Source of the DNA: Fidelibacterota bacterium TCS56
Lineage (GTDB): Bacteria > Fidelibacterota > Marinisomatia > Marinisomatales > TCS56
Length of the DNA: 40,606 nucleotides
Assembly: GCA_001577055.1 (NCBI GenBank)
Contig: LSCG01000006.1
Location: forward strand, 1 to 40,606
Reading direction: 5' to 3'
Position numbers and translations under genes: made by a program. Under the pieces are notes generated by a model, which saw only the letters and a program-made list of their open reading frames with translations, did not search any database and was not told the origin of the DNA. Below are positions 6,273-19,883 of this stretch, in pieces (positions within the stretch are counted from its first letter, which is position 1; each line of letters starts with the position of its first letter).

Positions 6273-7481
6273 CTATTCTAATAATTTTAAAACTTTGCTT
6301 ATCCTTTCAATACCTTCACGGATATTGTCCAGATTGGTGGCAAACGAAAAACGGATATGTCCCGGAGAACCGAACCCATCACCGGGAACGGTAACCACCC
6401 GTGCTTGTTCCAACAGGTAATTCCCCAGATCAAATGAATCTTCCAGAACCTGGCCGTCGGCTTTTTTACCAATATAAGCGGAAAAATCAGGAAAGGCATA
6501 AAATGCTCCGCCGGGCAGGGCGCAACTTACGCCGGGGATTTCATTCAACAGGCCCACCATCAAATCCCGTCGCTCGCGGAAGGTGTGACGCATTTCTTCC
6601 ACCGCCGACTGGTCACCGGTTAGGGCTTCAATGGCGGCCTTCTGTCCGATGGAATTGGGGCAGGAAGTGGCTTGTCCCTGGAATTTGGCCATGGCTTTGG
6701 CAATCACCGGATCGGCCACGGCATAACCGATGCGCCAGCCGGTCATGGCATATGTTTTGGAAAGACTCATGCAAGTGACGATGCGGGCGCCGTGGTCATT
6801 CAATGTTTCGGCGCTGATGAACGGTTTTCCATAAACCAGCCGCTCGTAACATTCATCGGCAATCACGGTCCAGTCCTGTTCGGCGGCCAATTTCAACAAC
6901 TTCCGGACCGCCTCATGGGACCAGACACCACCGGTGGGATTGGATGGTGTGTTAATAATAACACCTCTGGTCCGGGGTGTGATTTTTTCTCCCAGATCAT
7001 CAAAATCCGGCTCAAAAGCCTGCTCAGGATCGGTATTCACGAAGACCGGCTCGGCATCAGCCAAACGGACAAATTCCGGGAAGGACACCCAATAGGGCCT
7101 GAAAACAATTACTTCGTCTCCGGACTGAAACAGTACCTGACAGGCATTGAACAGGCTCTGTTTCTCACCGTTGGATACCACCACCCGGTCCGGTTCGGCT
7201 TTGATATTATTCTCCCGCGCCAGTTTAGCGCAAACAGCCTGGCGCAGTTCGGGCATGCCGGCTCCGGCCGTGTATTTGGTGAAGCCGTCATCCATGGCCC
7301 GCTGGCCGGCGGTGATGATATTAGCCGGTGTGTTGAAATCGGGCTCACCGACGCTAAAATTGATCACATCAACGCCCTGAGCGCGCAATTCGGCGGCCTT
7401 GGCCGCCATCTCCAGAGTAAAAGAGGGCTTAACCCGTCCGATCCTGTCGGCCAGACGGATCGCCTTGGCAGATTTTACCAT
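6273..7481 (-). CDS. Pyridoxal-phosphate aminotransferase, class I (aspartate aminotransferase type)
   Basis: This fold-type I PLP enzyme has 402 residues. Conserved segments are INFSVGEPDFNTP near 40-52, YTAGAGMPELRQAV, NGEKQSLF, NTPSNPTGGVW, IADECYERLVYG, and the Schiff-base lysine in SLSKTYAMTGWRIGY near residue 240. The C-terminal RFSFATN supplies the substrate-carboxylate arginine. This matches the Thermus/Bacillus-type aspartate (or aspartate/prephenate) aminotransferase subgroup; the exact acceptor cannot be fixed from sequence. Its start overlaps the end of the Cas6-like gene by 7 bases, which implies shared transcription. Confidence 0.93.
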   Translation of the reverse strand: MVKSAKAIRLADRIGRVKPSFTLEMAAKAAELRAQGVDVINFSVGEPDFNTPANIITAGQRAMDDGFTKYTAGAGMPELRQAVCAKLARENNIKAEPDRVVVSNGEKQSLFNACQVLFQSGDEVIVFRPYWVSFPEFVRLADAEPVFVNTDPEQAFEPDFDDLGEKITPRTRGVIINTPSNPTGGVWSHEAVRKLLKLAAEQDWTVIADECYERLVYGKPFISAETLNDHGARIVTCMSLSKTYAMTGWRIGYAVADPVIAKAMAKFQGQATSCPNSIGQKAAIEALTGDQSAVEEMRHTFRERRDLMVGLLNEIPGVSCALPGGAFYAFPDFSAYIGKKADGQVLEDSFDLGNYLLEQARVVTVPGDGFGSPGHIRFSFATNLDNIREGIERISKVLKLLE

Positions 7482-8488
7482 TCGTGTCGTTTCTTGTGAT
7501 ATTCTTCAGTATTGAAACGAGATTCATCGTCCGGTTCTTCTTTGGGCTTGGACGGACGCTTACGGCGGCGCGGGGCCGGCCGGGATTCTTCCTCGATGTG
7601 GAATTCTTCCGATAACACCTTGCGGGTGCCGCTGCCACGTCGTGGTTTTGACCGCCCTGAGGAACGCTTACTGCGGGCTCGGGGCCGGGGTTTGGGCACG
7701 TCTTCCATGCTTACGCCATCGTCGCTGGCCAAGTTGGGTACTTCCTCATCCGGAATATCTTCTTCCTTAATTTCACCCTTGATTTCGCTCTCATCAAATG
7801 AGAACATGGCCGGATTGTACAGGCCATAAAGCGCGCCGTAACCGCGGGTAATGCCATTACCAATCCCAAGGTAGTTGGGTAAAATGAAATTGGTACGGAA
7901 CTCACCATTGAAAGCGCCCCAGTAAGTTTCATCCACCGTTTTAGGGAACAGGGATGTGAGACTCAAGCGGGTAAATACTTTCTCTTCCAGTTGCATACCC
8001 ATTTCGCGCGCCAGGAAGACGATGTTTTGACTCAGCAGCCGGCTCAGATAATTCATTTTCTCCATGCTGTTGAGATAACGGTAACGGATACCGGTAGTCT
8101 GATTAAGGGCGATCCAGGGGGTAATGAACCGGTAACGAATCATGCGGGTGATTGGTCTGAATAAATCATCCCTTTCCTCCAAATCGACATCCAGCACCTG
8201 GAAGGTGATATTGCCGAAATCCAGGAAATCAAATTTATCCGCCATCGCCATAATTGAATCTACACCCTCGTTAATTCCAACGACATATATCTGTTCGTTC
8301 AGAATTTTTACCTGAACCCGGGGATATAAAAACCGATCACGATAGCGCCCATCCAGCAGCGGGATGATTTCCTCATCCGGGTACTGGCGCATGAAAACAC
8401 CTTTTACCTGGTACGGCGTCTTTTTAACCGGTTTATCGGTTATAATCTTCAGCGTTACTGTTCGTATCGCAGGACTTGAAGATTCCAT
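7475..8488 (-). CDS. Cas6b-like (RAMP-fold) protein with a charged tail, not linked to CRISPR
   Basis: The protein has 337 residues. Residues 8-225 resemble Cas6-family CRISPR endoribonucleases of the Cas6b type by my reading. An N-terminal beta-rich part ends in YPRVQVKIL and IYVVGINEGVDSI, the segment RYRFITPWIALN lies at 118-129, and there is a C-terminal run FNGEFRTNFILPNYLGIG followed by the glycine-rich loop NGITRGYGALYG (211-222). In Cas6 this loop contacts RNA. The usual catalytic histidine (after PLL in the N-terminal half) is replaced by DGRYRDR, and no histidine occurs before residue 297, so cleavage by the usual mechanism is unlikely. Residues 230-337 are a low-complexity tail, first acidic and then rich in R, K, P and S, which looks disordered and nucleic-acid binding. 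GAGGAG precedes the ATG. It lies 44 bases after rho and overlaps the aminotransferase start. I infer an RNA-binding role; the function is unknown. Confidence 0.72.
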   Translation of the reverse strand: MESSSPAIRTVTLKIITDKPVKKTPYQVKGVFMRQYPDEEIIPLLDGRYRDRFLYPRVQVKILNEQIYVVGINEGVDSIMAMADKFDFLDFGNITFQVLDVDLEERDDLFRPITRMIRYRFITPWIALNQTTGIRYRYLNSMEKMNYLSRLLSQNIVFLAREMGMQLEEKVFTRLSLTSLFPKTVDETYWGAFNGEFRTNFILPNYLGIGNGITRGYGALYGLYNPAMFSFDESEIKGEIKEEDIPDEEVPNLASDDGVSMEDVPKPRPRARSKRSSGRSKPRRGSGTRKVLSEEFHIEEESRPAPRRRKRPSKPKEEPDDESRFNTEEYHKKRHEW

Positions 8489-8532: not shown

Positions 8533-9780
8533 TCACTGACTCATTGTATTGAGAAATTCCTCATTGGTTTTAGTGCGTTTTATCCGCTCCTGGAGAAATT
8601 CCATAGCTTCTATAACGTTCATTTCGTTGAGCAATTTGCGCAAAATCCACAAACGAGCCAATTCTTTTTTATTCAACAGCAGTTCTTCCTTGCGGGTGCC
8701 GGAACGAATCAGGTCGAAAGAGGGAAAGATTCGTCGGTCACTCAGCCGCCGGTCCAGGACCAGTTCCATGTTGCCGGTCCCTTTGAACTCCTCAAAAATC
8801 ACGTCGTCCATACGGCTGCCGGTATCGATCAAGGCCGTGGCTATAATTGTAAATGTTCCACCTTCTTCGGTGTTCCGGGCGGCTCCGAGAAACTGTTTGG
8901 GTTTTTTCAAGGCGTTGGTGTCAATGCCACCCGACATGATCTTTCCGCTGTGCGGTATTATTGTATTATGCGCCCTGGCCAGACGGGTAATACTGTCTAA
9001 TAGAACGACCACATCCTTGCCAAACTCAACTGAACGTTTGGCTTTTTGCAAAGCCATATCCGCCACCGATACATGGCGCTCCGGCGGTTCATCGAAAGTC
9101 GAACTGACCACATCCGCATCAACGTGGCGCTTCATATCGGTGACCTCTTCTGGACGCTCATCGATCAACAGCACAATCATTTCCGTATCAGGATGGTTGG
9201 CGCGAATTGCATTGGCGATTTTTTGCAGGAGGATTGTTTTCCCGGTTTTAGGCTGGGCCACAATCAGGGCGCGCTGGCCTTTTCCAATGGGAGCAAACAA
9301 ATCCAGTATGCGGGTGGATATATCCTTGGGGTCAGATTCCAGATTATAACGCTCTTCCGGGTGATAAGGCGTGAAATTATCAAACAGGATGGCCTGTTTT
9401 AACTGCTCCGGGAGAAAACCATTAACCTGGTCAACTTTCAATAAGGCATAAAACCGCTCTTTTTCCTTTGGGGGCCTGATTTCACCATTTACCAGGTGAC
9501 CGGTACGCAGACCGAAGCGTTTGATCTGCGAGGGGCTGACATAAATATCATCAGGGCCCGGCAGATAATTAAAATCGGGACTGCGCAAAAAACCATAGCC
9601 GTCAGGCAGCACTTCCAGCACACCGGTGGCGCGTAATGCTTCATCCTTAGATTTCTGGGTTTCCAGAATTTTTACAATTAATTCCTGCTTGCGCCGACCC
9701 GAATATCCCTGTACACCCAGGTCTTGAGCGAGCTTGGTCAGGTCCTTTATTTTTAATGCCTGGAGCTCGTTAACATCCAT
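8533..9780 (-). CDS. rho: Transcription termination factor Rho
   Basis: Rho is a hexameric RNA-dependent ATPase that loads on C-rich untranslated RNA and dislodges RNA polymerase. The protein has 415 residues, near the E. coli length. It has an N-terminal helical Rho-N domain (1-45), a cold-shock-like RNA-binding domain ([20 protein letters not shown], 53-72), Walker A AQPKTGKT at 175-182, Walker [11 protein letters not shown], the Q-loop segment [13 protein letters not shown] and the C-terminal [18 protein letters not shown]. There is no large insertion. GAAGGA lies 7-12 bases before the ATG. An 84-base leader separates it from folC and holds a terminator-like hairpin. Rho genes often autoregulate through their leaders. 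Confidence 0.97.
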
Positions 9781-9847
9781 GAGGATTTCCTTCTAGTGAA
9801 TTATGGCTTGTTATCTACAGAAAAAACCGTTGCCGGAAAATAAAATC

Positions 9848-9883
9848 TGAGACGGTAAATTACATTAAATAATACCGGTCTCA
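9848..9883 (-). terminator. Terminator-like hairpin at the folC end, upstream of rho
   Basis: On the minus strand TGAGACCGGTA pairs with TACCGTCTCA (ten pairs with one bulged base) around a 15-base AU-rich loop, and is followed by GATTTTATTTT. It overlaps the last codons of folC and lies 68 bases before the rho start codon. It probably ends the amidase-folC transcript, leaving rho under its own promoter or an attenuated one. Confidence 0.6.
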
Positions 9884-17206: not shown

Positions 17207-18312
17207 CACAACATCAGCGTCCGGTAAAAATTACACAGGCGGTGGGCCATTGTTCCCCAGGAAAATTGCCGCCGAACCGCTTCGGCGCCCCGGGCGCCCA
17301 TTTGTTTACGGCGCTGTTCATCAGCCTCCAATTCCAGGATGGTTTCACTCACCGTCAGGGGAATATAGTTTTTTAGAACAACACCGGTTTCCCAATCCGC
17401 CACCGCATCTTCGGTGAAGGGTGTGCGCCCGCAGATTACTGGAATGGAATGGGCCAGATAACTGAACACTTCGATCTGCTGGCTGCGCTGGAAAAAATCA
17501 TCTTCATTGGGCGTGGCCAGGCCCAGCAAACGGCGGTTTCGGGGAAGTTGGCGGTAAAATTCAGGTTGAAGGTGAACGGCATCTTTCAGATGAAACTCTG
17601 CCAGCAATTGATCGAATCCGGCGGCCACTCTGTGAGCCAAGGGGCGGGTGATGACCAACTCTATTTCAGGGTATTCCATCTTAACTAAGAATACCGCGTC
17701 CAGAATCAATTCCAGGTCGCGGACTTTTTCCGTTAAACCACTATAAACCAGCGTCAGGGGTGCCTCTGCTTCCACCGGTTCCGGTTCCGCTTTGGGTCGG
17801 GGATAATTACAGACACAGATCTTACGCCGGCAGAAGCGCCCTACCCCCGGCCGGGAACGGGGGGCCGCCATCACCAGTCCGTCAATGAAAATCACACCGA
17901 TAACTTCAATCAATTTCAGCACTGTGGCCTTAAAACGTGCCAGCAGCGTGGGCGGCCCGAATTTCCACAGAAAATAGTGATATGTTGGATAATGGGCGTC
18001 GTAAATAATGGCGGCGCTGGTAAGCAAACGGAAGCACCACCCCAGAATCAGCAGTTCCGGTCCGTGTAAATGATAAACCCGGGCCCGCAGCCGCAAGGCC
18101 AGCAGGTAGGCGTTGATAATCATGATCAGGCGGGAGCGCTGTCGATAGGTAACCAGCCGCACGCGCCCTGCATGGCTCACCTGCCCGTCCCCGGGAGCGA
18201 TAATGGTAATCTGGGGACAACAATCCTGCAGGCTGGTGGTTTCTTTTAACACCCGCTCCTCCAGGGCTTCGGTACTGATTGTCAAATGGCAGTAATTGGC
18301 CGGATATGACAT
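17206..18312 (-). CDS. GT-B fold glycosyltransferase (GT4-like)
   Basis: I choose the ATG at 18312 (368 residues, MSYPANYCHLTISTEALEER), because it overlaps the hutH stop as TGATG; the longer frame reads back into hutH. Features are the acceptor-domain segment VYHLHGPELLILGW with IIYDAHYPTYHYFLW, then LTLVYSGLTEKVRDLELILDAVF at the start of the donor domain, and QIEVFSYLAHSIPVICG with TGVVLKNYIP in the nucleotide-sugar region. Together these indicate a retaining GT4-type enzyme. The substrate is unknown. It is coupled to the next glycosyltransferase by another TGATG. Confidence 0.82.
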   Translation of the reverse strand: MSYPANYCHLTISTEALEERVLKETTSLQDCCPQITIIAPGDGQVSHAGRVRLVTYRQRSRLIMIINAYLLALRLRARVYHLHGPELLILGWCFRLLTSAAIIYDAHYPTYHYFLWKFGPPTLLARFKATVLKLIEVIGVIFIDGLVMAAPRSRPGVGRFCRRKICVCNYPRPKAEPEPVEAEAPLTLVYSGLTEKVRDLELILDAVFLVKMEYPEIELVITRPLAHRVAAGFDQLLAEFHLKDAVHLQPEFYRQLPRNRRLLGLATPNEDDFFQRSQQIEVFSYLAHSIPVICGRTPFTEDAVADWETGVVLKNYIPLTVSETILELEADEQRRKQMGARGAEAVRRQFSWGTMAHRLCNFYRTLML

Positions 18313-19883
18313 CAATTCCCCAGGCTGTATTTTACCCGGTCGCTCCCGTAAAGCTCGCAGCCCAACTCCCGGGCCTGGCCGGTAACGGCCCGCAATAGCA
18401 CTTGATTCCTGATTAATTGACAAGCCTGATCGATATCTTCGGCAAATACCCGGTCCTGGTCGGCGTGGTCGATCACCCGGCGAACCTGGCGGTGTCCCGC
18501 TTCCAGCAGCGGACTGGATTTCAGCGGATGGCGAAAATCAAAGGCCTGAGCCGCTGTCACCAGTTCAATCGCCAGGATATTTTCCAGATTGTCAATTAGC
18601 TGCGCCAACTTGCGACCACTGATGGAGCCCATGCTCACATGATCTTCCTGCCCCAAAGAAGTGGGAATACTGTCGGCCGAGGCTGGAAAACACAAAGTTT
18701 TGTTTTCACTGGCCAGCGCCGCGGAGGTGTACTGGGCGATCATGAATCCGGAATTGATCCCCGTTTCTTTCATCAACAGACGGGGCAGGCCCCGTTTTTC
18801 ACCATCCAGCAGCAGGTAGGTGCGTCGATCGGAAATATTGCCCAGCTCACTGGCGGCCACCGTGGTATAATCCAGGGGCAGCGCCAGAGGTTGTCCATGA
18901 AAATTGCCGCCGCTTACCGCCGTACCGTCGGGTAGAATAACAGGATTGTCGGTTACGGAATTCAATTCGGTTATCACAATTTCATGCAAGTGTCGCCAGG
19001 CAGTCCGGGTGGCGCCGTGCACCTGGGGCATACAGCGTAACGAGTAGGGGTCCTGCACGCGATCACAGTCGGCATGCGACGCCACCATGGCGGAACCATC
19101 CAGAAGATTCTTGAGCGTATTGGCTACAAAGCGGCTGCCGTCATGGGGACGCAGGTGATGCAATTCATCCCGGAAAGGACTGACTGAACCCTGCAGGGCT
19201 TCCAGTGACATGGCGCCGATAATGTCGGCATTATCGCAGCAGACTGACAGCCGCTCCAGTCCGTGAATCGCGAAAGCCAGCATGTACTGGGTTCCGTTGA
19301 TCAGCGCCAGTCCTTCTTTGGCAGTCAATTGTAACGGGGTGACGCCCATTTTGGCCAGCGCTTCATCCGCCGGCAGGATGGCGCCCCGGCAGCGGGTGTA
19401 TCCCTGGCCGATTAATGGCAGAAACAGGTGGGCCAGCGGCGCCAGATCACCGGAGGCGCCCACCGATCCCTGGGCCGGTACCACCGGTGTGATATCGTTA
19501 TCCAGTAACCATAAAATGCGCTCAACGATTTCCGGGCGCACTCCGGAATAGCCTTGGGCCAGGGCATGGATTTTAGTAACCAGCATCAAGCGGACAATTT
19601 CATCGCTCAGATCGGGGCCCACGCCGGTGCTGTGGCTGCGCAGGATATTTTCCTGCAATCGTTCGGTATCGGCGCGAGAAATTCGGGTAGTGCACAGGGG
19701 GCCGAAGCCCGTATTGACGCCATAAACCGGTAGATCGTCCGCCAGTATCGCTTCCACCTGCTCTCTGCCGGCGACGATTTTTTCACGCACAGCGGCCGGG
19801 ATTGAGCCCGCCAATTCCCGGCGGGCCAGTTTCAGCACAAGGGCGGGCGTCAATTGATCCTGACCGTAAGTAAAGGCTTTCAT
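18312..19883 (-). CDS. hutH: Histidine ammonia-lyase
   Basis: This enzyme deaminates L-histidine to urocanate without added cofactor, using a self-made MIO group. It has 523 residues, a normal size. The MIO tripeptide is A143-S144-G145 in GSVGASGDLAPLAH. The active-site tyrosine is Y54 in YGVNTGFG, the specificity dipeptide is SH (83-84), and the QEDHVSMG segment carries the glutamate typical of histidine rather than tyrosine or phenylalanine lyases. No hutU, hutI or hutG lies nearby. Instead it heads a minus-strand run of three glycosyltransferases, with one base of overlap. It may serve a standalone catabolic step or feed a specialised product. It is divergent from the GT4 gene at 20035, with 151 bases between. 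Confidence 0.93.
   Translation of the reverse strand: MKAFTYGQDQLTPALVLKLARRELAGSIPAAVREKIVAGREQVEAILADDLPVYGVNTGFGPLCTTRISRADTERLQENILRSHSTGVGPDLSDEIVRLMLVTKIHALAQGYSGVRPEIVERILWLLDNDITPVVPAQGSVGASGDLAPLAHLFLPLIGQGYTRCRGAILPADEALAKMGVTPLQLTAKEGLALINGTQYMLAFAIHGLERLSVCCDNADIIGAMSLEALQGSVSPFRDELHHLRPHDGSRFVANTLKNLLDGSAMVASHADCDRVQDPYSLRCMPQVHGATRTAWRHLHEIVITELNSVTDNPVILPDGTAVSGGNFHGQPLALPLDYTTVAASELGNISDRRTYLLLDGEKRGLPRLLMKETGINSGFMIAQYTSAALASENKTLCFPASADSIPTSLGQEDHVSMGSISGRKLAQLIDNLENILAIELVTAAQAFDFRHPLKSSPLLEAGHRQVRRVIDHADQDRVFAEDIDQACQLIRNQVLLRAVTGQARELGCELYGSDRVKYSLGN

Follow-up and report, generated by a model that had tools for sequence, protein, structure and literature searches.

A rho-linked Cas6b homologue without the catalytic histidines in the phylum Candidatus Neomarinimicrobiota

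Where CRISPR parts have been reused outside immunity, mobile elements or entire CRISPR modules are usually involved. Pyrococcus furiosus, a CRISPR-bearing organism, has a Cas6 paralogue described as non-catalytic, Cas6nc (PDB 3ufc). In Cas6b of Methanococcus maripaludis (PDB 4z7k/4z7l; PF17955 and PF17262) two histidines have been implicated in catalysis, and Cas6 of Sulfolobus solfataricus (Sso1437) cleaves without an active-site histidine (PMC3652601). Solo Cas4 and other cas genes have been described outside CRISPR loci (PMC5704561). The protein described here, which we named Cas6L, shares with M. maripaludis Cas6b homology over residues 8-220, the (predicted) fold and a glycine-rich loop. 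It differs from it in lacking the His-x-His pair, in a lysine-to-asparagine change in the loop and in the absence of cas genes and arrays from its surroundings, as well as in its constant linkage to rho, its vertical inheritance and, in one order, an additional charged tail. S. solfataricus Cas6 likewise has a Cas6 fold without an active-site histidine but stands apart as an active CRISPR endonuclease, relying on basic residues (PMC3652601). Cas6nc has the Cas6 fold in common with Cas6L, yet it belongs to another Cas6 subfamily and is not linked to rho. Solo Cas4 is, like Cas6L, a member of a Cas family found outside CRISPR (PMC5704561), but of a different protein family, whereas Cas6L is a core gene that reaches deep into its phylum and stays linked to rho. 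In the open-access literature our searches turned up no account of a Cas6b linked to rho or occurring without CRISPR.

Candidatus Neomarinimicrobiota (Marinimicrobia or SAR406; Fidelibacterota in GTDB) is a mainly marine phylum. We analysed 40,606 nucleotides from one of its members, Fidelibacterota bacterium TCS56 (GCA_001577055.1, contig LSCG01000006.1, positions 1 to 40,606), referred to below as the window (Table 1). The cas6L frame, its start 44 nt past rho and its 7-nt overlap with the aminotransferase gene are as claimed in an earlier, sequence-only reading, which had likened the protein to Cas6b on the strength of FNGEFRTNFILPNYLGIG, NGITRGYGALYG and RFITPWIALN. All three segments lie within a Pfam Cas6b_C match at residues 115-220 (7.6e-23; 81.3 bits against a cut-off of 39.4), and Cas6b_N matches residues 8-106 (2.4e-11; 44.1 bits against a cut-off of 25). 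A sequence search of the PDB returned Cas6b 4z7k (2.1e-26) and the PADLOC Cas6b model matched with 2.7e-39, while no NCBIfam model matched Cas6L.

An AlphaFold2 model of the single chain, built on an alignment of 34 orthologues, had block-mean pLDDT values mostly of 88-97 across residues 11-220 and a pTM of 0.73. Compared with the PDB by Foldseek, its top matches were Cas6b 4z7k/4z7l (TM to target 0.82-0.88; for 4z7k, E 3.8e-19 and TM 0.82), with type IV Cas6 and further Cas6 proteins ranking next; Cas6nc matched more weakly (8.5e-7). The model thus has the double-ferredoxin fold of Cas6b, and the non-ferredoxin-like prediction that would have refuted the earlier reading did not arise. Since the Pfam, PDB sequence and fold matches agree, the resemblance noted there is real homology, and Cas6L is confirmed by these three routes as a true Cas6b homologue, the fold being that of a predicted structure. 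Because annotation tools score it as Cas6b, Cas6L can be mistaken for a lone CRISPR gene in genomes where there is no sign of CRISPR.

Table 1. Features of the cas6L locus (positions in the window)
Feature	Position	Strand	Details	Basis
rpmE, ribosomal protein L31	6060..6263	-	67 aa; cas6L operon	named by eye from translation
Aminotransferase class I/II, aspC-like	6273..7481	-		PF00155 5.4e-76
cas6L, rho-linked Cas6b-like gene	7475..8488	-	337 aa, ATG start	Pfam, PDB, PADLOC matches
Conserved C-terminal motif RFNTEEYHKKRHEW	7478..7519	-	consensus FNxxxYHxKxH	present in 86/86 tailed members
Low-complexity tail	7478..7822	-	residues 223-337; acidic 223-262 (net -11), basic 263-292 (net +11), then mixed	
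Two-RRM domain, Cas6b-type	7823..8467	-	residues about 8-222	AlphaFold2 pLDDT, Foldseek
Glycine-rich loop GIGNGITRGYG	7835..7867	-	residues 208-218	column conservation
Site of the Cas6b catalytic His-x-His, IPLLDGRYRDRFLYPRV	8315..8365	-	residues 42-58; no histidine in Cas6L	aligned columns
rho, transcription termination factor	8533..9780	-	415 aa	Rho_N, Rho_RNA_bind, ATP-synt_ab matches
folC-rho intergenic, putative rho promoter (TGTAATTT) and leader hairpin	9781..9864	-		pair counts from family f7 relatives, not window sequence

The window protein has histidines only at positions 297, 331 and 335, and so none in its first 296 residues, as the earlier reading had pointed out. The catalytic pair is missing from the other rho-linked proteins as well. 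At the two His-x-His columns of the alignment, histidine occurs in 9/10 and 10/10 Cas6b proteins and in 0/113 and 0/113 rho-linked ones. Where Cas6b of the phylum carries the segment IHNHLxxGKFRYxYPxIQFK, or a close variant of it, the rho-linked clade has INGxYRxxxxYPRVQVK, with G47, R50 and R57 conserved at 94-99%. By our reading of the motif, the histidines implicated in catalysis by the M. maripaludis enzyme would correspond to this pair. A glycine-rich loop forms the RNA contact of Cas6 proteins. In it, G210, G216 and G218 are invariant (100%) in both groups, whereas position 211 is lysine in 10/10 Cas6b and asparagine in 95% of the rho-linked clade.

The missing histidines are no proof of lost cleavage, because S. 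solfataricus Cas6 cleaves without one (PMC3652601). Cas6L might accordingly still be an endoribonuclease, with a site rebuilt from the conserved basic and aromatic residues R50, Y55, R57 and K61; its targets would be RNAs of the host, such as the transcripts of the cas6L operon or those terminated by Rho. Conservation of these four residues (94-97% in the rho-linked clade), the replacement of the His-x-His segment by NGxxR....YPR and the existence of histidine-free Cas6 enzymes (PMC3652601) speak for this possibility. We regard it as unlikely, however: Y55 and K61 are also found in Cas6b and may be structural, the loop lysine has changed together with both catalytic histidines, and no substrate is known.

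Across the phylum, PF17262 was matched in 130 of 245 genomes, which we split by gene position and score into 126 with the rho-linked kind and 4 with Cas6b only. Cas6L was found in 51/61 near relatives of the window's genome and in 99 genomes of its order, where it is missing from only one large group, a genus with genomes of about 0.4-1.0 Mb. Among GTDB representatives, a pattern-based scan found 116 relatives of Cas6L; of the best 80, 78 came from Ca. Neomarinimicrobiota or from unnamed or FCB bins with the same neighbourhood, and 2 were archaeal. As other phyla were sampled by this one pattern-based scan, and only through the best 80 of 116, rho-linked Cas6b elsewhere is not excluded. The archaeal proteins L181 and L198 were considered as cases of horizontal spread, which we rejected, as both are ordinary Cas6b with the His-x-His pair and are not linked to rho. 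No relative of Cas6L was found in the viral contigs searched.

The sequence-only reading had proposed that conservation of the rho neighbourhood be checked in homologues, and the adjacency to rho itself holds throughout: in 94/94 distinct loci for which upstream sequence is available, the next gene upstream of cas6L on the same strand is rho. The gap is within 250 nt in 92 of the 94 (median 36); in the other two it measures 410 and 507 nt, with nothing between the genes but an antisense ORF or a truncated rho. Other neighbours are less constant, with aspC adjacent downstream in 84/95 loci and folC upstream of rho in 77/86. Ancestrally, the genes run folC-rho-cas6L-aspC-rpmE-DUF1385-prfA-prmC-UbiA. 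The other neighbours, or all of them but UbiA, have been replaced in families f22 and f23, where the rho-cas6L pair is intact; in f25 the upstream side is altered and the pair is retained; in f13 aspC is displaced. A binning or assembly artefact was rejected, since the arrangement recurs across many independent assemblies, including single-contig chromosomes; some of the contigs with the pair have single-cell-like names. In lineages without Cas6L, aspC comes directly after rho, unless the operon has been broken up and a different gene follows. Rho is present in 237/244 genomes of the phylum, the Cas6L-free lineages included, and can therefore work without Cas6L. Genus g17, with reduced genomes of about 0.4-1.0 Mb (G016, G026, G032, G038 and G050), has lost Cas6L and has aspC directly after rho; its Rho frames seem longer at the N-terminus (428-452 aa, as against 415).

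Because the operon also carries rpmE, prfA and prmC, a role in translation is possible, in which Cas6L would be an RNA-binding translation or ribosome-assembly factor that merely shares an operon with rho. These three genes belong to the ancestral operon, and charged tails such as that described below also occur in ribosome-associated proteins. We nevertheless find such a role quite unlikely, because it was rho that stayed with cas6L where the operon broke up (f22 and f23), and because Cas6L is never found without rho in front, whereas aspC and folC move. With rho as the sole constant neighbour, action with or on Rho is our best guess.

To place Cas6L relative to Cas6b we used an unrooted tree of 70 rows, which included ten Cas6b (eight from the phylum and two archaeal). 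A branch supported at 100/97 separates these ten from the rho-linked proteins, whose subclades track taxonomy; the f25 sequences, the most divergent, are placed beside the Cas6b branch. Distances of Cas6L correlate with those of PrfA (0.74) and of Rho (0.66) as those of Rho and PrfA do with each other (0.68). Judged from these sequences, Cas6L is inherited vertically from early in the phylum, with losses. Since the tree is unrooted, the direction from Cas6b to the rho-linked protein is only the parsimonious reading; that Cas6b would be the ancestor is the simplest one, because Cas6b with the His-x-His pair occurs in archaea too.

The Cas6L domain is under strong purifying selection. For pairs with unsaturated dS, its dN/dS was about 0.008 (L061/L062), 0.012 (L005/L006) and 0.016 (L084/L085); the tail of L005/L006 gave about 0.14. 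That the catalytic residues are gone could also suggest a decaying former cas6 kept by chance, an idea to which we give practically no credence with domain values near 0.01 and with Cas6L present in nearly all genomes of the order outside one reduced genus. On dN/dS, a pseudogene was rejected.

The earlier statement that neither an array nor another cas gene lies nearby was borne out. The window contains no repeat-spacer array, only repeat families of two copies (the 41-nt duplication mentioned at the end is one of them), and a PADLOC scan of 20 further window proteins revealed no other cas genes; an NtrC-type regulator matched the AAA part of RtcR models. In the window's genome (about 88% complete) there was no match to Cas1, DevR-type Cas7, Cas3_HD or Cas10. 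Two combined searches, covering 245 and 244 genomes, found cas1 in 12 of the 126 genomes with Cas6L (5/99 in the window's order) and none detectable in the other 114. Elsewhere in the phylum, genes with stronger Cas6b matches (104-146 bits) sit in cas operons, for example Cas6b-Cas8(TM1802)-Cas7-Cas3 at L092; in G066, G067, G179, G083 and G218, Cas1 and Cas3 matches share a contig with Cas6b. Several genomes (G014, G017, G066, G067, G108 and G179) have both Cas6L and such a Cas6b, in separate locations in, for example, G066, G067 and G179. Pairs of Cas6L and a histidine-bearing Cas6b within one genome are L096/L088 (G017), L097/L090 (G108), L062/L087 (G179), L076/L094 (G066) and L077/L093 (G067).

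Close homologues of Cas6L therefore stand behind rho and not in CRISPR loci, in a clade distinct from the histidine-bearing Cas6b, and Cas6L is not a CRISPR gene; arrays were searched in the window only, and the remaining 1.9 Mb of the genome lie outside that search. In principle, Cas6L could act in trans in the manner of stand-alone Cas6 proteins, maturing crRNA from arrays at other places in the genome, and annotation of the PADLOC type would indeed name it Cas6b. This is highly improbable and was rejected: the other cas genes sought are absent from the window's genome and cas1 from most genomes with Cas6L, several CRISPR-bearing relatives hold a histidine-bearing Cas6b of their own, and vertical inheritance and low dN/dS are unlike those of cas genes. 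Taken with the linkage to rho, the loss of the His-x-His pair and the separation from Cas6b of cas operons, the results support the suggestion of the sequence-only reading that a Cas6 fold was taken over for a non-defence role.

The acidic and then basic tail, also noted in that reading, is present as described, and ends in a conserved motif that the reading had missed. A tail occurs in 86/113 distinct rho-linked members and is lacking in 27; it is absent from members outside the window's order. It is about 112 residues long, with 22% K/R and 19% D/E (86 tailed members). Closing a disordered tail, FNxxxYHxKxH looks like a docking motif. We rejected the notion that its conservation is a by-product of the overlap with aspC, as the motif is kept in L119 and L120, where aspC is displaced.

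We consider it probable, without being certain, that Cas6b was exapted once, long ago, and that Cas6L, inherited vertically since then, is a housekeeping RNA-binding protein that probably works with Rho; the RNA binding, the loss of cleavage and the link to Rho are inferences. Early in Ca. Neomarinimicrobiota, a cas6b-type gene would have been placed directly behind rho and would have lost its catalytic pair, to be passed on vertically thereafter as a housekeeping gene and lost again in some lineages. As both RRM-like halves are kept, together with the glycine-rich loop, the most likely function of Cas6L is to bind cellular RNA, with weak cutting or none. It may mark or mask RNA sites for Rho, or tune rho expression and termination, and in the window's order the charged tail and its end motif may add another point of contact, with RNA or with a partner protein. 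A role near transcription termination, raised in the earlier reading, is consistent with the strict linkage to rho but has not been demonstrated: gene adjacency is not interaction, and no RNA target has been identified.

A more specific version, which we offer only as a tentative possibility, is that a dead Cas6b serves as a dedicated, phylum-wide Rho cofactor, recognising RNA sites and steering Rho termination, possibly at rho's own leader, with the tail motif docking on Rho, RNA polymerase or the ribosome. Known Rho partners are NusG, Rof/YaeO, Psu and Hfq. To our knowledge none of them is derived from Cas6, and no homology to Cas6L is suggested; they would be functional analogues if the link to Rho is right. 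Cas6L would then be a Rho partner of a new kind, and would clearly exemplify the conversion of a defence protein to housekeeping. In much of a bacterial phylum, a single crRNA-processing protein has apparently turned into a core gene that is passed on vertically.

An Rfam search around the cas6L gene returned nothing. The TGTAATTT box upstream of rho is conserved in orthologous folC-rho intergenic regions (for example L161:1844-1903, L100:8630-8689 and L153:3624-3683) and is perhaps a -10 element. Downstream of it, a 5-bp hairpin was supported in 17 sequences of family f7, with 89% of cells pairing and a covariation of 0.60, compared with 0.20 after shuffling. Although the hairpin covaries and is real in family f7, we make no claim that it is a binding site of Cas6L, because a similar one can be drawn by eye in the rho leaders of genomes without Cas6L. 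Box and hairpin may together form an undescribed cis-regulatory element of rho. Elsewhere in the window, the minus-strand gene at 18312-19883, among glycosyltransferase-like genes, encodes a protein of the aromatic amino acid lyase family (PF00221, 4.7e-188), which could be histidine ammonia-lyase or a relative, and a 41-nt unit is exactly duplicated in tandem in the intergenic stretch 1575-1656.
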